Shown here: positions 7,474 to 62,273 of the stretch, in pieces
Layout of the letters: each line of letters begins with the position of its first letter
How positions within the stretch are numbered: position 1 is the stretch's first letter
NCBI GenBank assembly: GCA_030432565.1
Contig: JAUIGV010000008.1
Location: 124,001-188,000 of the forward strand
From: Verrucomicrobiia bacterium
GTDB lineage: Bacteria > Verrucomicrobiota > Verrucomicrobiia > Verrucomicrobiales > Akkermansiaceae
DNA: 64,000 bases
Direction of reading: 5' to 3'
Made by a program: the position numbers and the translations under genes
The notes under the pieces: model-generated
Database searches by the model: none
Told to the model about the DNA's origin: nothing
Seen by the model: only the letters and a program-made list of their open reading frames with translations

Positions 7474-11649
<4,176 letters not shown>

Positions 11650-34328: not shown

Positions 34329-35648
34329 ATGAGCACCCAGAAGGAACTCGCCATCGAATCCGCCCGCGTTTTGCGTGAGGCTGGTCATGTCGTCTATTTC
34401 GCCGGCGGTGCCGTTCGCGACCAACTTCTCGGACAGACTCCGAAGGACTACGATCTTGCCACCTCGGCCCGGCCCGATGAAGTGCAGGCTCTCTTCAAAA
34501 AATCCGATGCCGTGGGCGAGCACTTCGGCGTCATCATTGTGAAGGGCTCGGGCGAAATGATCGAAGTCGCAACCTTCCGCACCGACGGATCCTATAAGGA
34601 CGGTCGCCGACCCGAGTCGGTCGAATTCTCCTCGCCCGAACAGGACGCGCAACGCCGCGACTTCACCATCAACGGGCTCTTCCAAGATCCGCTCACCGGA
34701 GAAATCATCGACCACGTGGGTGGACGCGCTGATCTTGAAGCGAAAGTCCTGCGGGCCATTGGCGACCCCCGGAAGCGTTTCGAAGAAGACGCCCTCCGGC
34801 TCCTGCGCGCCATCCGCTTCTCCACCACCACCGGATTTGAGATCGAAGCGAAAACCTGGGCCGCGATTCAGGAATGCGCCCCCCTCCTCTCACAAATTTC
34901 CCCCGAGCGAATTCGCGACGAATTCTCCCGCATCCTAATGGCAGCTGACCGCGCTCGCGGCCTTGACCTCCTTGTCGACTCCGGACTCATCAAAGAGTTT
35001 CTACCCGAGGTTCTGGACCTGCAGGGCTGCGAACAACCACCGCAATGGCACCCCGAGGGAGACGTTTACGTACACACCCGCATCGCTCTCTCTCTTCTCA
35101 ATTCACCGCCTCTCCACTTGGCTCTCGCCGTGCTCCTGCACGACATCGGAAAGCCGGCCACCCAAGCCTGGGACGCGGAAGCAGAACGCTTTCGATTTAA
35201 CGGCCACGACAAGGTTGGAGCATCAATGGCCGAAAAAATCCTGCGCCGCCTTCGTTATTCAAACCAAACGGTCGAAGACGTCACCTTCATGGTCTCACGT
35301 CACATGCAGTTCATGCACGTGAAGGACATGCGCACCGCTAAGTTGAAACGTTTCATGTCGGCGGAGACCTTCGAGCTTGAGACCGAACTTCATCGGGTCG
35401 ACTGTGACAGCTCAAACGGTTTCCGAGATAACTACGATTTTGTTCGTACTAAAAAAGAGGAGTTCGCCCGGGAACCCCTCATCCCAAAGCCACTCCTGAC
35501 CGGGCACGATCTCATCCGCGATTTCAAGATCGCCCCCGGCCCGGAAATCGGCACAATCCTCCGCGACGTTCAAACCGAACAACTGGAGGGAAGACTTTCT
35601 GATAAAGAAGCCGCCTACCAATTCGTAAAAGAAACACTTTCACAATGA
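34329..35648 (+). CDS. cca: CCA-adding enzyme / poly(A) polymerase family with HD domain
   Basis: 439 residues from the ATG at 34329; the open frame runs far upstream to 33624 but that part antisenses the 33804-34244 gene. Repairs or completes tRNA 3' CCA ends. Motifs in order: FAGGAVRDQLLG and the metal site DYDLAT, RRDFTINGLF, EDALRLLRAIRFS. An HD phosphohydrolase domain follows (LLHDIGKP, FNGHDKVGA, VSRHMQFM). Both tRNA genes in this window encode CCA, so the enzyme may mainly do repair. The stop overlaps the next start (ATGA). Confidence 0.92.
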   Translation: MSTQKELAIESARVLREAGHVVYFAGGAVRDQLLGQTPKDYDLATSARPDEVQALFKKSDAVGEHFGVIIVKGSGEMIEVATFRTDGSYKDGRRPESVEFSSPEQDAQRRDFTINGLFQDPLTGEIIDHVGGRADLEAKVLRAIGDPRKRFEEDALRLLRAIRFSTTTGFEIEAKTWAAIQECAPLLSQISPERIRDEFSRILMAADRARGLDLLVDSGLIKEFLPEVLDLQGCEQPPQWHPEGDVYVHTRIALSLLNSPPLHLALAVLLHDIGKPATQAWDAEAERFRFNGHDKVGASMAEKILRRLRYSNQTVEDVTFMVSRHMQFMHVKDMRTAKLKRFMSAETFELETELHRVDCDSSNGFRDNYDFVRTKKEEFAREPLIPKPLLTGHDLIRDFKIAPGPEIGTILRDVQTEQLEGRLSDKEAAYQFVKETLSQ

Positions 35649-36748
35649 GCAACATCCCGACTGAACACGACGATCCTATCAACGCCAAGATTCTCAGCGT
35701 CTCCGAAGACCTGGTCTCCGGCTTCCAGCAAGACCCGTTTTCCATCATCGCTGAAGAGTCCGGAGTCGAACTCAATGTCGTTCTGGAACGCATCCGCGCC
35801 ATGCTCGAAGCCGGAGTCATTCGCCGTGTTCGCCAGACCATGCTCGCCACCAAGCTGGCACACGGAGCACTTGTCGCCTGGCGCGTTCCCGAGGAAAAGC
35901 TCAACGACGCCTTCGACTTCATGGCCAAGGAGGATCCCTTCTCCGGCCACGTTGTCATTCGCTCGACCGATGGCCAAATCTCCGGTTCCGGCTACCGCCT
36001 CTGGACCACTCTCAAGGTCCCCCAGGGCGAGTCTCTGGAGGAGCATGGCAACGTCCTCAAACGTCTTGTTGGGGCCGAGGAATTTATCCTCATGCCGGCC
36101 AACGGAGTTTTCGCGCTTGGCGTGGGCCACGTTCGACGCAAGGGCCTTGAACCCGGGGCAAAGCTGGATGTCCCGGCAGAAATGATGACCACCACAGTCG
36201 TCGATCTCACCAAGGAAGAATGGGACGTCCTCCTCGCCCTCAAAGAAGAACTCGCACCAGATGAAGTCATCGTCAATTGCTGGGATCGCCGCGCCGAAAT
36301 GGCAGGCGTTTCGCTGGAGCGCTTCTATGAAGTTGCCCGAATCCTCGACAGCAAGAAAGTCATCGGGCGCTTCTCAACCTTCCTTGAACACGTCAAGCCC
36401 TCCGACACCGGAAAACGCGTGACCCGTTTCAATGGTCTCTTCCACTGGGCCGTTCCCAAGGGTCGTGAAATGGAGGCTGGCGGTGAAGTCGGCCGCCATC
36501 ACTGTATGACCCACGCCTACTGGCGCGAAGGGGGCCCCAAATTTGGTAATGTCAACATCATGGGCGTGGTTCACGGAACCGAGAAAGACAAGGTGCTTGA
36601 GCACAAGGCCGCCATCGACAAACACCTCGAAGCAGTCGGAATCCCTGTCAGCTACACCAACGTTTTTTGGGGAGGTCGCTCGGAAATAAAGCCCTCGGAA
36701 ATTTCCCCGAAGATTTACCGCGAGTGGCATGAAAAGCATGCCGAATAA
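35645..36748 (+). CDS. Fused AhbA/AhbB-like (siroheme decarboxylase/NirD-L-type) AsnC-fold protein
   Basis: 367 residues made of two similar halves, each a winged helix followed by an AsnC/Lrp-like ferredoxin fold. Half 1 has VLERIRAMLEAGVIRRVRQT and SGYRLWTTLKVP. Half 2 has ILDSKKVIGRFSTFLEHV, FNGLFHWAVP, HHCMTHAYWREGGPKFGNVN and IMGVVHG. The last two match the AhbB/NirL pattern (SHCY...WPYNL..MVHG) better than that of classic Lrp regulators. AhbA-AhbB convert siroheme to didecarboxysiroheme. Normally they are two proteins; here they are one chain. No other heme or nitrite genes lie nearby. An Lrp-type regulator remains the alternative. Coupled to cca by ATGA. Confidence 0.7.
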   Translation: MSNIPTEHDDPINAKILSVSEDLVSGFQQDPFSIIAEESGVELNVVLERIRAMLEAGVIRRVRQTMLATKLAHGALVAWRVPEEKLNDAFDFMAKEDPFSGHVVIRSTDGQISGSGYRLWTTLKVPQGESLEEHGNVLKRLVGAEEFILMPANGVFALGVGHVRRKGLEPGAKLDVPAEMMTTTVVDLTKEEWDVLLALKEELAPDEVIVNCWDRRAEMAGVSLERFYEVARILDSKKVIGRFSTFLEHVKPSDTGKRVTRFNGLFHWAVPKGREMEAGGEVGRHHCMTHAYWREGGPKFGNVNIMGVVHGTEKDKVLEHKAAIDKHLEAVGIPVSYTNVFWGGRSEIKPSEISPKIYREWHEKHAE

Positions 36749-47676: not shown

Positions 47677-47798
47677 CCAAAATGCGGCAAGGATGAAGGA
47701 AAATCATTATTAGATACTCAAAATGCCCTCAAAGAAGTTGGGCCTCAGGTGAAAAGAGGCGGCTTATCTGACCGTTGACTAATGACAGACTCCTGATG

Positions 47799-50162
47799 AT
47801 GACCGTTTTACGCCTCCGAACGATCCTTTCGACCCTCTCGCTGGCGGTCGGAATCTGCTTTGCGGACAAGGAAGCAGAAAAAGAGGTCGAAATCGAATTC
47901 CAGAAAAAGATCGAGCCCCTGCTGCAGGACTATTGTTACGACTGCCACGGCGACGGGGCGGACAAGGGTGATTTCGTTCTCGATGGTTTTGAGAACACCA
48001 CCGCCCTCCTTCAAAACCAACACGTTTGGCTTCGTATTTGGGAGAATCTCCGCACCGAGATGATGCCTCCGGCGAAGGAGGAATTCCAGCCGTCCCCCAA
48101 GGAACGGAAGGAGTTGGTCGCATGGATTGAGAAAAAGGTCTTCGCCCTCGACCCCGAAAACCCCGATCCGGGCCGCGTCACGATCCGGAGAATGAACCGC
48201 GAGGAATACCGGAACACCATCGCAGACGTTGTTGGAGTGGATTTCAACACGACCGACAACTTCCCCCCCGACGACACCGGCTTTGGTTTCGACACCATCG
48301 GCGACGTCCTGACCATCTCACCGCTTTTGATGGAGAAGTATCTCAACGCGGCCGCAGAGATTGCAGAATTGGCTCTACCCGCTGATGCCGGGAAACCAAA
48401 ACCGATCGCAATCGATGCCGGAAGTTTTCGCGATCGCGGAGGCAGCCAGACCGCTCGTTTTATGGAGGCGAACGTTGCTCAAACTGTTTCCGCAAAACGA
48501 CGCATCGACGCAGGAGGTAAATACTCACTGGAAGTTGCCTACACCGTGAAAAGCGAAGGCGGGAGCCCGAAAGGACAATCCGCCAAATGGCAAATGCTCA
48601 TCGATGGTGAGAAAGTCCGGGAACTTGACTTCAATTCCGACAAGTCACGTGGAAGCCGCTTCGTTCAGGAATTCGACCTGGCGAGAGGCGAGCATCGTTT
48701 CGAGTTCGTCATCATTCCCGAAAACAACGGAGAAGGGAATGGCACCGTCGGAATTCAGGTCGATCGCTTTAAACTGACGCGTCTCGGATTGGATGACAGT
48801 TGGGATCTTTACCCCGAAAGCTATCAACGGATCTTTGTCGATGGCCTGCCTCCTGCCGGAGAAAAGGAAAAGGCAACCTACATGCGAAAAATCGTCGAGA
48901 ACTTCGCCTTTCGCGCCTTCCGACGCCCCCCGCGGAAGAAGCTCATTGACCAAATCACAAATCTTGCCGTGACCAAGAGCAAAGAGAGCAAGTTTGTCGA
49001 TGGCGTTCGCCTTGCCGTCACCGCAACCCTGACCTCTCCCAGCTTCCTCTTCCGCAGTGAAACCCAGGCGGAACCGGACAATCCCGGCAAAGTCGTCTTG
49101 CTCGATGAATACGCGCTCGCTTCCCGGCTTTCCTACTTCCTGTGGAGCTCTGCTCCGGACAAAACGCTTCTGGATCTTGCGGAGAAAAAACAACTCCGGA
49201 AATACCTCCGCGGACAAGTGGACCGCATGCTCGCTGACAAAAAATCAGACCGAATGGTCGAAAACTTCATCGGTCAGTGGCTTCAGGCGCGAGATTTGCA
49301 GGGACTGAGCATTGATACCCGGCGCATTCTGCGGGAACGGGACAGCCGGAAAGCCAATCGGGTTTTCAATCAGGGAACACGCCGGGATATGAAAATAGAG
49401 ACGGAAGAATTCTTTCGTCACGTTCTCGTTCAAAACCGCCCCATTTTAGAACTCCTCAACGGGAATTATTCTTTCCTCAACGAAAACCTTGCCAATTTTT
49501 ACGGGGTGCGCGGCGTGAGCGGCAGAGAGTTCCGCAAGGTCGAGTTCGACGAGAATGTCAAGGGTCGCGGCGGGCTTCTCGGCCAGGGCACCTTCCTGAT
49601 TGTGACCTCGCAGTCCACCCGCACCTCTCCGGTCAAGCGGGGTCTTTTCGTCCTCGATAACATACTCGGGACCCCCGCTCCCCCTGCCCCGCCCGATGTC
49701 CCGGAGTTGGAGGAAGTCCAGAAAAAGCTGGAGAAAGGAGCAACCATGCGGGATCTGATGGAAGTCCACCGCGAGAAACCACTGTGTGCCTCGTGTCACG
49801 AACGCATGGACCCGATCGGGCTTGCCCTCGAGAACTTCAACGCCCTCGGCCAGTGGCGGGACAATGAAGATGGCAAGGAAATCGACAGCGCCGGCAAGCT
49901 CGTCACCGGAGAGAGATTCTCAAATGTCATGGAACTTAAGACCATTCTGGCAGGTTCCCGCAAACAAGATTTCTATCGCTGCCTCACCGAAAAAATGCTG
50001 ACCTACGCTCTTGGCCGGGGCGTCGAGTACTACGATGCCCCAACTGTGGATGCCATCATGACCCAGCTCCTAAAAGACGGTGGCGGAATGAAAGATCTCA
50101 TTTATGCTGTCATCGAAAGCGTTCCATTTCAAAAACGAAGAGGGGACGGAAACGCCTTTTAA
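47799..50162 (+). CDS. DUF1587/1595/1592/1588/1585 c-type cytochrome protein (cassette 1)
   Basis: 787 residues from the ATG at 47799 (other in-frame ATGs at 47775 and 47796 only extend the leader). Signal peptide about 1-22. Two heme sites: C46-Y-D-C-H in the PSCyt1 domain and C663-A-S-C-H in DUF1588 (followed by [13 protein letters not shown]). DUF1587 ([20 protein letters not shown]), DUF1592 and DUF1585 ([12 protein letters not shown]) can be placed in order. The family is typical of Planctomycetota/Verrucomicrobiota and is nearly always next to a DUF1552 gene, as here. Function unproven; periplasmic electron transfer in polymer or organic-compound oxidation is inferred. Confidence 0.93.
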
Positions 50163-51598: not shown

Positions 51599-53911
51599 CT
51601 ATCCTCCCCGACGCTTCTGAAAAGGCGAGCTCCTGATGATTGCAACAACCAAATCCTTTAGTGTGCCTTCACCTTCGCTCAGTTCCTTTATCAGGGCATC
51701 GATCGTGACGGCATCGAAATATTCCGGCCCCCGCCCAATCGCGTAGGTGAGAATCTTCTCGCTGAGACAACGATAAAAATCATCCCGCCGTTTATCGGCC
51801 AGAACGTTCTTGAGCCCGGCGATGTCGCTGAACTCCTCGCCGGTGATCAGCACTCCGGCAGAGTCGATGGGCTGCCCTGCTTCCTTATCGCGGAACTGTC
51901 CTATGGCATTGAAGTTTTCGAGCCCCAAACCAATCGGATCCATCCGCTTGTGACAACTGGCACACATCGGTTTTTCACGATGCACCTCCATCATCTGCCG
52001 CATTGTCAACGGCTTCCCCTGATGCTCTGAAACCTCTTCCAGTTCCGGCACGTCGGGCGGGGCGGGCGGGGCGGGAGTGCCTAAAATGTTATCGAGGACA
52101 AAAAGGCCGCGTTTCACGGGCGATGTCCGAGTTGGATTGGAGGTCACCAGGAGGAAGGTGCCCTGCCCCAAAACCCCTCCGCGCTGCGGATGCTCGTGCA
52201 AATCAACCAGTCGATGCTCGGCACCGCGGACGCCGGGAATGTCATAAAACTTTGCCAATCTCTCATTCAGAAAACTATAACGCGCCGAGATCAACTCCGC
52301 AGCCGGTCGGTTGTTCTTAAGAATGAATTCAAAGAAGAGTTCGGATTCCTCCTTCATGTCACTGCGAAGCCGTTCATTGAAAATCCGGTCTGCCTCCCGC
52401 TGATCCGTCGTTCCAATCACACGACCGGCGTCAATGGCGACATTCTCGACATCCCGCGCCTGAAGCCATTGCCCGACAAAGTTATCCACGAACCGACGGG
52501 ACTTGGGACTCGCGATCATCCGGTCAATCTGGGCATTGAGATTTTTACGAAGCTCTTTTTTAAAGGCGAGGCTCAGCAATTCGTCATCGGGAACCGAACT
52601 CCAAAGAAAGAATGAAAGACGCGCAGCTAGGGCATATTCATCCAGCATCACGATCTTCCCGCGATTATTGGGTTCCGGTTGGATTTCCGCGCGGAACAAG
52701 AAGCGGGGTGAAGCAAGTACCGCCGTCATGGCATGCTTGATGCCATCCTCAAAGCTCCGGCCCGGGGTCTGATCCACCTGCATCGCCATCTTTACAAGCC
52801 GGGCCACAGTGCCCCGATCAAGAGGACGGCGAAACGCCCGGCTCACAAAACTCCGCATGATCTTGCGAGCATACAACTCCCGCTCGCGCATTTCCTCCGG
52901 AGCCGGTCCATCAACCATGATCATGCTGTATCCCTTGGGATACTCCTTAAAGCTGCCATCAAGCGGCCCTTTAATCGTAACTTGTTTCAAAATTGCGGAT
53001 TGTTCCCCCTGCCCCTCACCGGGCGGATTTTTTGGGCTGAGACGGACCTCCACGGTATTGCGTCCTTTTACCAGATCAGCCTGCCCCCCCATCGAGATCT
53101 TGTCGCGTTGATCCCAGCCGATGATCCGCTCGGCAATCTTTTGGCCATTCACCCAAAGTTCGAGTCCGGCACTCTGGTCGGTGGCTGCAGCCGAACCCCG
53201 GACGGCATAGTCAAGGGTAACCTGATAAACACCATTCGCTGGCGCATCCCCCTTCAAATAGACTTTGCGCTCATCCTTAAACTCCAACCAATTTGCCTGC
53301 TGCTTCTCGTCCCCATCCTTGCGAAACCGGCTTCCTTCAAAGAGCCGAACCGGAGTCTGCATCGCCGCCCCCTTCGGCAAAGCCTTCTCAACAATAGACG
53401 AAGCCGCTTCGAGATACTTCTCCATGTGAAGGGGAGAAATGGAAAGGACATCTCCGATGGTATCGAATCCGTATCCCGTATCGTCAGCCGGAAAGTTCTC
53501 CCAGGTTTCATACTCCACACCAAGAAGGTCCTTGATCGCATAGTAATATTCGACCCGATTTAAACGCCGAATTGTCACCCGCCCCGGATCCGGGTTTTCG
53601 GGATCGAGCTTGAAGACCCGCTTCTCGATCCACCCCATGAGCTGGCGCTTCTCGGCGAGATCAGGTTGATCCTTTTTCGGGGGCGGCATGATTTGAGACC
53701 TCACATTGCGCCAGACCGCGAGCCAGTGGTCGATGTCATCGAGATGACCGGAAAGATCATCGTACTGGTCCATTAAGAAATCCCCTTTCGAAGAACCATC
53801 ACCATGACAGTCGAAACAATAATCTTCGAGAATCGGCTTGATCTCCTTCTCGAAGGTCACATCACCCGAGGCCAGGGCAGGCAGGAATAGAAAGGCCAGG
53901 AGTCGCTTCAT
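51599..53911 (-). CDS. DUF1592-family c-type cytochrome protein, inverted paralogue
   Basis: 770 residues. Signal peptide MKRLLAFLFLPALASG; heme motifs C32-F-D-C-H and C650-A-S-C-H (followed by KRMDPIGLGLENF). Same domain order as the protein at 47799 and closely related to it; both contain the stretch [20 protein letters not shown]. It is on the opposite strand, ends 8 bp from the DUF1552 stop, and has no DUF1552 partner of its own. It may share the one between them. The upstream region is divergent to the TIM-barrel gene. Confidence 0.93.
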   Translation of the reverse strand: MKRLLAFLFLPALASGDVTFEKEIKPILEDYCFDCHGDGSSKGDFLMDQYDDLSGHLDDIDHWLAVWRNVRSQIMPPPKKDQPDLAEKRQLMGWIEKRVFKLDPENPDPGRVTIRRLNRVEYYYAIKDLLGVEYETWENFPADDTGYGFDTIGDVLSISPLHMEKYLEAASSIVEKALPKGAAMQTPVRLFEGSRFRKDGDEKQQANWLEFKDERKVYLKGDAPANGVYQVTLDYAVRGSAAATDQSAGLELWVNGQKIAERIIGWDQRDKISMGGQADLVKGRNTVEVRLSPKNPPGEGQGEQSAILKQVTIKGPLDGSFKEYPKGYSMIMVDGPAPEEMRERELYARKIMRSFVSRAFRRPLDRGTVARLVKMAMQVDQTPGRSFEDGIKHAMTAVLASPRFLFRAEIQPEPNNRGKIVMLDEYALAARLSFFLWSSVPDDELLSLAFKKELRKNLNAQIDRMIASPKSRRFVDNFVGQWLQARDVENVAIDAGRVIGTTDQREADRIFNERLRSDMKEESELFFEFILKNNRPAAELISARYSFLNERLAKFYDIPGVRGAEHRLVDLHEHPQRGGVLGQGTFLLVTSNPTRTSPVKRGLFVLDNILGTPAPPAPPDVPELEEVSEHQGKPLTMRQMMEVHREKPMCASCHKRMDPIGLGLENFNAIGQFRDKEAGQPIDSAGVLITGEEFSDIAGLKNVLADKRRDDFYRCLSEKILTYAIGRGPEYFDAVTIDALIKELSEGEGTLKDLVVAIIRSSPFQKRRGG

Positions 53912-59789: not shown

Positions 59790-62273
59790 TTATCGGGACC
59801 TGAAGATCTCGCTCACCAGCGCCTCTTCGACAAGAGTCCGCAGCCCGTTTCCTTTCGACCGGGCCCTTTCTTGAACGTCACCAATTTCAAACTCGTCCAC
59901 GGCTTCCATGTGGCGGCCACTTGCATAGGTCAGAATCGTAGTGATCAAATGTTTTGCGAATACGTCCGACCGGGTCTCAACAAGGACTTCCCGCAAACCG
60001 CGGAAGCTCTCAAACTCTTCACCCGAGGGCATTTCTCCGGAAGCATCAACTTTCAACTTTGGGGCCTTCTTTCCCTCTCTTGGATAGTGATCCCGCCACC
60101 TTCCCAACTGATCAAATGTCTCAAGTCCGAATCCGAGGGGATCGATTTTCCGGTGACACTCGGCACAGGTTTTTGATTCGCGGTGCTTTTCCAATCGCTC
60201 GCGCAAAGTGGTCGCCCCTCTGACATCGGGCTCGATTGGCGGGACTTCGTCAGGTGGAGGTGGTGGCACCACACCCAGAATATTCTCCGAGACAAAAACC
60301 CCGCGGGTCACTGGCGAGGTATCCACTCCATTGGCGCTCACGGTAAGCACGGCGGCCATTCCGAGAATCCCTCCCCTTCGGTTCTTATCCCCAAGCCTGA
60401 CCTTTCGAAAACCATCTTTAAGCCGAAGCGTTTTGGCTTCGGGAAGTCGATACAGAGCTGCCAGATATTTGTCCACGAACGTAAAATCAGCATCGAGCAG
60501 GGTCCCAACCGGTAGATTTTCATTCAACATATGGGCAAAAAAATGGCGGACCTCCCCTTTCATGGAAGCCGGCCAGTTTTCGGAATAATATCGTCGGGCT
60601 TTCTCCCGAGGAGGGGGCATGCCGCCAAGATCACGGAGATTGAGCCAGGAATCCAAAAAGCCATTCACAAATCCCCCGGATCGTTCATCCTCAAGGAGAC
60701 GTCGTACTTGCTTGCGAAGGATTTCCTCGCGCACCAATTCTCCGGAAGCCGCCAATCCCAACAACTCTTGGTCCGGAGGCCCCGCCCATAAGGTATAGGA
60801 AAGGCGTGACGCCAGGTCATACGGCTGCAGAGCCGGATCATCTTCGGGAGTAATCTCGCTGAGATAGAAAAACGACGGAGAACAGAGGATCAACTTCAAG
60901 GTATCAAGGGCCGCCTGACGGGCCCCTGACTTTTCCTCGATTCGCTCCCGATAGAATCGATGGATTCGCTTCCGGTCGATTTCTGAAAGTGGACGGCGGA
61001 AGGCTCTTTCCGCAAATCTCTCCAATTGTTTAAGCGCCTTCCCTGCCTTGAAGCCGTCTTTTCCGAAAACCGCGACTTCTTCAAGCCCTCCCTGTTTTTC
61101 CTCGATCGGACCATGCACCTTGACTTCCGAGATCCGGATATGGGGAAGCTTTCCTTCACGGAGAAGAGACGAACGACTGACTCCATTCGAGGGGTTTTTA
61201 AACTCATCCTTATACCGTTTGTTCAATTCAATCACCGATCTCCTCGACTCACTGGGACCATTGGGAAAAATAAAACGCGGAGTCTGACCCTTCTCAAGCC
61301 AGACCCGGAAGTTGATCCACTCCGGCTTGTCATCCGGAACCAACGAAGATCCCAGGAGCGGCTCAACCCGCTGCGGGTAGTGAATATGCCCTTTCATCAC
61401 ATCACCGGGCACCACCCCGAGGATGAAAGGCTCACTCAGATCGATCCCGAAAATTGACGGATCATAGTGGGTGTCGCGGTGCATTCCCTGCACCAGGACC
61501 TTGAGATCATAAAGACCCGAGACCGGAACACCCTCCAAAAAATCCTCAATGTGCCCGTAACTACCCTGCCGGGTATCCGTGTCCGGCTGCTCGTAGACGC
61601 AGAGGAACCTATTTTTAAAGACAGCCCGGTGGGATCCGGCCAATTCTTCATACTGCTTGAAGTTGTCCGTGAAATGCCAATCCCTCGCCTTCATGTCCGG
61701 TTTACCGAGGCGATTTTCAACCAAACGATGAGCCGCTTGAAAATATTGATCGAGAAGAAATCCGGAGGTTACCAAACTCTCTCCGATCGTATCAATATGA
61801 CGACTGGTTTTCTCTTTGGGAAAATCCGCAGTCAGTCCCAGCGTGTCCACGCGGCGGCCAAAAAGGACTTCCAGGGTGTTTTCATATTCCCGATTGGAGA
61901 GGCGGCGCATCACCGTCTTTCCACCGTTACTTCCGAATCTCCCTCTGGCCGCTTCCACCTCCGACCTCAGGACCCCAAGCACTTCCAGGCGCTCCTCGTC
62001 GGAAGGTTGGTCCTTCTTCCTGGGCGGCATCTCCTTCAGAGTGATTTGGTCGATGATCTCCCGCGCTGCCACCAAATCCTGGATGCTTTCCAAGGGAATC
62101 TTGAGACTTTCGAACTCCCTCTCTCCTTTTTCGGACGCCGTATCGTGGCAATCGAAGCAGTAGTTGTGAAGAAAATCGCCAACGATCTCCCGGGACGACG
62201 AATCCGCGCCGGCGAATGACGCTCCGAGCACAAAAACAGCCAGGAATTTGCCAATGATTCTCGTTGCAATCAT
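59790..62273 (-). CDS. DUF1592-family c-type cytochrome protein (cassette 2)
   Basis: 827 residues. Signal peptide about 1-23; heme motifs C39-F-D-C-H and C703-A-E-C-H (followed by RKIDPLGFGLETF). Domain order as in the other two, but a more distant member: the proline-rich linker reads VVPPPPPDEVPPIEPDV, and there is an insertion in the middle (HRDTHYDPSIFGIDL). Starts 6 bp after the DUF1552 stop and so is certainly co-transcribed with it. Gene order here is DUF1552 first, the reverse of cassette 1. Confidence 0.93.
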   Translation of the reverse strand: MIATRIIGKFLAVFVLGASFAGADSSSREIVGDFLHNYCFDCHDTASEKGEREFESLKIPLESIQDLVAAREIIDQITLKEMPPRKKDQPSDEERLEVLGVLRSEVEAARGRFGSNGGKTVMRRLSNREYENTLEVLFGRRVDTLGLTADFPKEKTSRHIDTIGESLVTSGFLLDQYFQAAHRLVENRLGKPDMKARDWHFTDNFKQYEELAGSHRAVFKNRFLCVYEQPDTDTRQGSYGHIEDFLEGVPVSGLYDLKVLVQGMHRDTHYDPSIFGIDLSEPFILGVVPGDVMKGHIHYPQRVEPLLGSSLVPDDKPEWINFRVWLEKGQTPRFIFPNGPSESRRSVIELNKRYKDEFKNPSNGVSRSSLLREGKLPHIRISEVKVHGPIEEKQGGLEEVAVFGKDGFKAGKALKQLERFAERAFRRPLSEIDRKRIHRFYRERIEEKSGARQAALDTLKLILCSPSFFYLSEITPEDDPALQPYDLASRLSYTLWAGPPDQELLGLAASGELVREEILRKQVRRLLEDERSGGFVNGFLDSWLNLRDLGGMPPPREKARRYYSENWPASMKGEVRHFFAHMLNENLPVGTLLDADFTFVDKYLAALYRLPEAKTLRLKDGFRKVRLGDKNRRGGILGMAAVLTVSANGVDTSPVTRGVFVSENILGVVPPPPPDEVPPIEPDVRGATTLRERLEKHRESKTCAECHRKIDPLGFGLETFDQLGRWRDHYPREGKKAPKLKVDASGEMPSGEEFESFRGLREVLVETRSDVFAKHLITTILTYASGRHMEAVDEFEIGDVQERARSKGNGLRTLVEEALVSEIFRSR

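Follow-up and report, generated by a model that had tools for sequence, protein, structure and literature searches.

The window analysed here (the whole 64,000-nucleotide stretch of DNA, part of a 5.93 Mb draft genome, G000, that is 97% complete) carries an ahbAB-like gene whose product is very probably a single-chain siroheme decarboxylase feeding heme synthesis. An earlier note on this DNA had proposed a 'siroheme decarboxylase out of context', and this reading is supported by profile scores, by the residues of the pocket and by a fold that matches NirDL. The gene would be central to an unusual way of making heme that most members of one bacterial class share. The pattern described below offers a single testable answer to the heme-gene gaps of Haloferula, Roseibacillus, Luteolibacter, other Akkermansiaceae and, probably, the Xiphinematobacter symbionts, for which the 2015 genome paper lists hemD, hemE, hemY and hemH as missing (PMC4607532), and it would bring aerobic bacteria into a siroheme route otherwise associated with archaea and sulfate reducers. 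Members of the family are easily taken for Lrp/AsnC regulators; the pattern described here suggests heme-biosynthesis enzymes. Our literature search, which covered sources other than subscription journals, returned no account of such a route in Verrucomicrobiota, although a prior mention is possible.

A divergent, fused relative of AhbA and AhbB

The features of the locus are:

34329..35648, + strand: cca, upstream neighbour, tRNA nucleotidyltransferase family, 439 aa (Pfam PolyA_pol and others)
35645..36748, + strand: ahbAB-like gene with ATG start, encoding a fused siroheme-decarboxylase-like protein of 367 aa (open reading frame; PF17805 twice; NCBIfam AhbA/AhbB; NirDL as top structure)
35726..36124, + strand: AhbA-like half, residues 28-160, winged helix and first ferredoxin-like domain (NF040708, PF22451)
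35948..35962, + strand: H102-V-V-I-R106, counterpart of AhbA His115 (iron ligand) and Arg119 (from an alignment with 4ch7 and 4czd; roles as given in PMC4145669)
36275..36631, + strand: AhbB-like half, residues 211-329 (NF040707)
36512..36526, + strand: H290-A-Y292-W-R294, counterpart of AhbB His98, Tyr100 and Arg102 (alignment to 4ch7 and 4czd; PMC4145669)

The NCBIfam profiles for AhbA and AhbB match the two halves with 52.3 bits (E 5e-14) and 76.9 bits (E 1.2e-21), respectively, both under the curated equivalog cut-offs of 140 and 125 bits. Pfam PF17805 is found twice in the protein (65.3 bits), and the NirDL-like winged-helix domain PF22451 reaches 26.6 bits in the AhbA-like half, against a cut-off of 27. 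The LrpA profile (NF040820), whose cut-off is 250 bits, reaches 13.6, and no Lrp/AsnC regulator model exceeds its cut-off. Judged by these matches, the protein is a predicted divergent variant of siroheme decarboxylase lying under the curated AhbA/AhbB cut-offs. The earlier note's claim of two fused halves, one AhbA-like and one AhbB-like, is borne out by the same profiles. Its description of the known AhbA and AhbB proteins as separate subunits does not hold, as fused forms are known (4CH7/4CZC; haloarchaea, PMC8305020); since NirDL (PMC4835899) is itself a single chain, the fusion is not novel.

Palmer et al. (PMC4145669) identified His115 of AhbA as the iron ligand, named Arg119 of AhbA and His98, Tyr100 and Arg102 of AhbB alongside it, and found the Arg102Ala variant of Desulfovibrio desulfuricans AhbB to be inactive. 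The counterparts of these five residues, H102, R106, H290, Y292 and R294, are invariant in 76 sequences (72 family members and four canonical relatives), and V104 of the first half stands where a Tyr is expected. An AlphaFold2 model, for which 47 close homologues were aligned (mean pLDDT 86.2, pTM 0.78), has NirDL as its top Foldseek match (E 4e-19), with Lrp-type regulators first appearing at E ~2e-3. In VIA-align, NirDL (4ch7) reaches Z 23.8 over 302 residues and single Lrp chains Z ~9, and the two AsnC-like ligand-binding (ferredoxin-like) domains form one barrel, as judged by the paired PF17805 matches and by comparison of the model with 4ch7. Because AhbA and AhbB outscore LrpA, the pocket His, Tyr and Arg are all present and the NirDL fold fits best, what was found speaks for, rather than against, the decarboxylase put forward in the earlier note.

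From homology, the fold, the conserved residues, the genes that each genome has or lacks, and purifying selection we infer the chemistry, substrate and order of steps as follows. The two ferredoxin-like halves would close into a single barrel with a siroheme-binding cavity, in which H102 would be the ligand of the siroheme iron and R106 would contact a propionate; H290, Y292 and R294 would decarboxylate the C12 and C18 acetates, yielding 12,18-didecarboxysiroheme. In the route as a whole, uroporphyrinogen III would be converted to precorrin-2 by a CobA-HemD fusion, precorrin-2 to siroheme by a two-domain chelatase of the CbiX/DR2241 type, siroheme to didecarboxysiroheme by the fused AhbAB-like protein, didecarboxysiroheme to coproheme (a step for which G000 yielded no enzyme candidate) and coproheme to heme b by ChdC.

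The gene alternates with the classical heme genes

A fixed set of 50 genomes of the class, 26 with the ahbAB-like gene and 24 without it, was searched for nine families. The 22 genomes in which HemE exceeds the cut-off are exactly those in which ferrochelatase (HemH) and HemY/CgoX do so too. When the ahbAB-like gene is present, all three are missing from 25 of the 26 genomes, G069 alone having the full set; when it is absent, 21 of the 24 genomes have all three. ChdC is found in 22 of the 26 genomes with the gene versus two of the 24 without. Fisher tests that ignore phylogeny return p 8e-10 for the HemE/HemY/HemH association and p 4e-8 for ChdC, values that are inflated because the genomes share descent and the counts overstate their independence.

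More telling than these tests are the swaps inside the gene-bearing order. G034, a member of the window's own family (L284, L285), and G041, from the same order (L286), have HemE, HemY and HemH and lack both the ahbAB-like gene and ChdC; in G041 the genes form a hemE-hemN-hemY-hemH cassette. G069 (L287) has both routes, with hemE, hemY and hemH clustered, and its family-mate G221 has the siroheme-type route only. The host itself encodes a ChdC that scores above the HemQ equivalog cut-off (257.7 against 253) and, of the other CPD heme pathway enzymes sought, lacks HemE, HemY/CgoX and ferrochelatase. Replacement of HemE within an otherwise classical pathway was considered and rejected, because HemY and HemH are absent as well. 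The HemH pattern in the 50 genomes agrees with a published ferrochelatase survey, in which the Verrucomicrobia ferrochelatases are confined to Opitutaceae and Puniceicoccaceae (PMC8529089).

The four gene-bearing genomes that lack ChdC belong to genus g3 and carry instead a tandem of AhbC/NirJ1-like and TIGR04053/AhbD-like radical SAM genes. Three genomes, G004, G019 and G086, have neither the ahbAB-like gene nor the HemE set. G004 and G019 are the only genomes with ChdC and no detected ahbAB-like gene; being drafts that are 92-93% complete and do have ChdC, they may carry the gene in unassembled sequence. G086 (L196), which is 99% complete and also belongs to genus g3, has the AhbC-like/AhbD-like pair, but lacks the ahbAB-like gene, HemE, HemH and ChdC.

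Siroheme supply and the proposed path to coproheme

The host has the siroheme supply that an Ahb pathway draws on, SUMT and a chelatase, in the absence of HemE, HemY and HemH. Its hemA, hemC and cobA/hemD genes lie in a row, and its CbiX chelatase, a two-domain protein of the PRK02395/DR2241 type, is encoded ahead of a DR2241/4Fe-4S protein. Of the 22 genomes that have both the ahbAB-like gene and ChdC, 20 also have a two-domain CbiX chelatase. Four genomes (G092, G113, G221 and G328) keep SUMT and have no sulfite/nitrite reductase of the NIR_SIR family; the HemE user G135, also without NIR_SIR, has lost SUMT. Between G092 and G113, dN/dS is 0.08 for the cobA half, 0.11 for the ahbAB-like gene, 0.14 for cbiX and 0.15 for chdC. 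These two 0.9 Mb, symbiont-like genomes thus retain the ahbAB-like gene, the methyltransferase, the chelatase and ChdC, but no siroheme reductase. With SUMT kept in the absence of NIR_SIR, precorrin-2/siroheme is probably made there for heme.

The proposed pathway has gaps, because the host lacks AhbC and a recognisable SirC. An ahbC gene elsewhere in the genome, which the earlier note suggested looking for, was not found: the best match of the TIGR04546 search in G000, at 46 bits, is MoaA. AhbC is also missing from most aerobic members, while AhbC-like proteins do occur in some relatives. Matches of 81-93 bits in f8 genomes were rejected as AhbC candidates; on a reading of the sequence they are PqqE-like and adjoin pqqB/pqqC-like genes. 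The surroundings of ChdC, CobA-HemD, CbiX and the ahbAB-like gene hold no recurrent candidate for an AhbC substitute; the sole recurrent partner of CbiX is the DR2241/Fer4_23 protein, a known companion domain. As for SirC, no precorrin-2 dehydrogenase of the SirC/CysG N-terminal type is recognisable in the 50 genomes (best PF13241 score 32 bits), most of which do have SUMT and siroheme reductases, and the PF13241 match in G000 turned out to be the NAD domain of HemA. The missing precorrin-2 dehydrogenation runs through the whole sample of 50 genomes and is not specific to the ahbAB-like gene.

We lean slightly towards the view that aerobic members of the class mostly use a hybrid route, made up of siroheme, a divergent AhbAB, an AhbC-independent and probably oxygen-tolerant formation of coproheme, and ChdC. 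As AhbC is missing, the AhbAB-like protein would have a wider activity and carry out more than two decarboxylations, or another enzyme would replace AhbC in removing the ring A and B acetates. The pattern exposes a missing enzyme or activity, one that leads from didecarboxysiroheme to coproheme without AhbC; in Haloferax, the coproheme source for aerobic ChdC was already called uncertain by Kosugi et al. (PMC5746218).

Alternative functions

The missing AhbC and SirC of the host would also be explained if the decarboxylase had shifted its substrate to iron-uroporphyrin III (or a related uroporphyrin) and removed all four acetate carboxyls, giving coproheme for ChdC without siroheme or AhbC. 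Such a shift would account for the divergence from canonical AhbAB (22-27% identity, long branch), and NirDL has been crystallised with an iron-uroporphyrin III analogue. We nevertheless consider it improbable: it leaves unexplained why SUMT stays under strong purifying selection (dN/dS 0.08 for the cobA half) in reduced genomes lacking any siroheme-dependent reductase, the CbiX-type chelatase that tracks the ahbAB-like gene is of the sirohydrochlorin class, and the Akkermansia-like members with AhbC/AhbD-like pairs and no ChdC fit a siroheme route.

Less probable again is a transcriptional regulator of the Lrp/AsnC type, or one sensing heme or siroheme, with putative DNA binding. While the two winged-helix plus RAM-like modules, the PF13412 winged-helix match (E 0.01) and the rank of single-domain Lrp proteins as next structural matches (Z ~9) agree with a regulator, the gap between LrpA (13.6 bits, cut-off 250) and AhbB (76.9 bits), the invariant catalytic residues and the retention of the gene in 0.9 Mb genomes do not, and a regulator would not explain why the gene alternates with heme enzymes. 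The swap with HemE, HemY, HemH and ChdC likewise disfavours the earlier note's other suggestion, a 'regulator derived from' a siroheme decarboxylase. We give hardly any weight to the role that NirDL plays, in making heme d1 for cytochrome cd1 nitrite reductase. No solved structure is closer than NirDL, and the related genome G041 has NirJ/NirF-like genes, yet G041, with its d1-like cluster, lacks the ahbAB-like gene, the host has no NirJ-like radical SAM protein (the AhbC/NirJ search returned MoaA only), and the gene follows the presence of ChdC and the absence of HemE.

Comparison with known systems

NirDL of Hydrogenobacter thermophilus (4CH7/4CZC) is the best solved relative by sequence too. 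Like the window's protein, it is one chain with AhbA-like and AhbB-like halves, HxxxR in the first and HxYxR in the second; structural identity is only ~21%, and the window's protein differs in an insertion after R106, in V104 in place of Tyr and in a conserved C-terminal extension. NirDL acts in heme d1 synthesis (PMC7242693), unlike the heme role proposed here. A probable heme d1 cluster was seen in G041 (contig C19; L289, L072), where a NirJ-like radical SAM protein is encoded between NirF/NirN-like propeller proteins.

The catalytic residues of D. desulfuricans AhbA (His115/Arg119) and AhbB (His98/Tyr100/Arg102) are all matched (4CZD, 4UN1), but these proteins are two subunits that work in a pathway with AhbC and AhbD, whereas the window's genome lacks AhbC. 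Haloarchaea, which also have a CbiX2, offer a parallel in their two-domain AhbA and AhbB proteins and in a siroheme route that ends aerobically with ChdC (PitA), as proposed here for the window's genome (PMC8305020, PMC5746218); Haloferax, however, combines two genes of this kind with AhbC, AhbD and SirC, and neither AhbC nor SirC is detectable in the window's genome.

Canonical fused AhbAB proteins of other Verrucomicrobiota classes (L189, L190, L191, and L192 as the second copy in G265) share the architecture and the catalytic residues; a long, fully supported branch sets the window's clade apart from them. The three that were scanned (L190, L191, L192) score 182-238 bits with AhbA and 218-230 bits with AhbB, over the NCBIfam cut-offs. 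L190 is a full heme operon with hemA, ahbC (692 bits), an ahbD-like gene, an AhbAB-CbiK fusion, sirC, a hemC-cobA-hemD fusion and hemB; the canonical AhbAB (L190:4712-6559) is fused to a CbiK-type sirohydrochlorin chelatase and adjoins the HemC-CobA-HemD triple fusion. The L191 operon holds ahbC (703 bits), an ahbD-like gene, ahbAB, a hemC-type gene, hemB and hemL (in both operons, the names hemA, hemB and hemL come from a reading of the sequence). PF17805 (AsnC_trans_reg2) and ChdC occur without HemE or ferrochelatase in three control genomes, those of Deinobacterium chartae, Haloferax volcanii and Sulfolobus acidocaldarius, which suggests that other phyla use a heme route of this kind.

Distribution and genomic context

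Among named records, a Verrucomicrobiota MAG comes closest (98% identity), followed by Akkermansiaceae, Haloferula, Roseibacillus and Luteolibacter. The ahbAB-like gene is present in 52 of 58 relatives; in the phylum sample, it occurs in members of the same class, including the complete 0.9 Mb genomes G092 and G113, presumably Xiphinematobacter, and many genomes of 2-3.5 Mb from genus g3, presumably Akkermansia. This recurrence far exceeds chance. Within the family, the tree of the gene roughly tracks taxonomy, and the plasmid collection gave one weak AsnC-like match only. A second copy, 70% identical and with intact catalytic residues, is found in G000 (L005:9506-10621, G000:C62:73538-74611; further loci L291, L292 and L293). 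In G000 and G021 it sits between an aldo-keto-reductase-like gene and ligA; G026 agrees on the reductase side, the one side that its contig shows, and G003 has a degraded copy, interrupted by stops, at the same site.

In the window, cca and the ahbAB-like gene share the ATGA at 35645-35648, so the 4 bp overlap claimed in the earlier note is real. Its remark that no heme genes lie nearby agrees with our searches: hemE, SUMT, AhbC, ferrochelatase, ChdC, HemY, SirC, NIR_SIR and CbiX have no match in the 64 kb, these families being encoded on other contigs of G000 or absent from it. As to the proposed coupling to cca, the linkage is conserved, with cca directly upstream in many Akkermansiaceae contigs, and nothing points to a functional link: several relatives have no cca inside the flank, and response-regulator/kinase genes are often found downstream. 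We regard the arrangement as ordinary linkage. In two MAGs (L203, L204, around 7960-8012; also L009, L011), an extra base before the ATG joins the cca and ahbAB-like frames into one of 856-870 codons from stop to stop, with the internal ATG kept; as the two MAGs were published separately and share it, the joining is probably real.

That the host needs heme is indicated by c-type cytochrome motifs. Three large proteins encoded in the window (47775-50159, + strand; 51602-53911, - strand; 59793-62273, - strand) contain two CxxCH heme-binding motifs apiece and resemble cytochrome-containing proteins common in Verrucomicrobiota.
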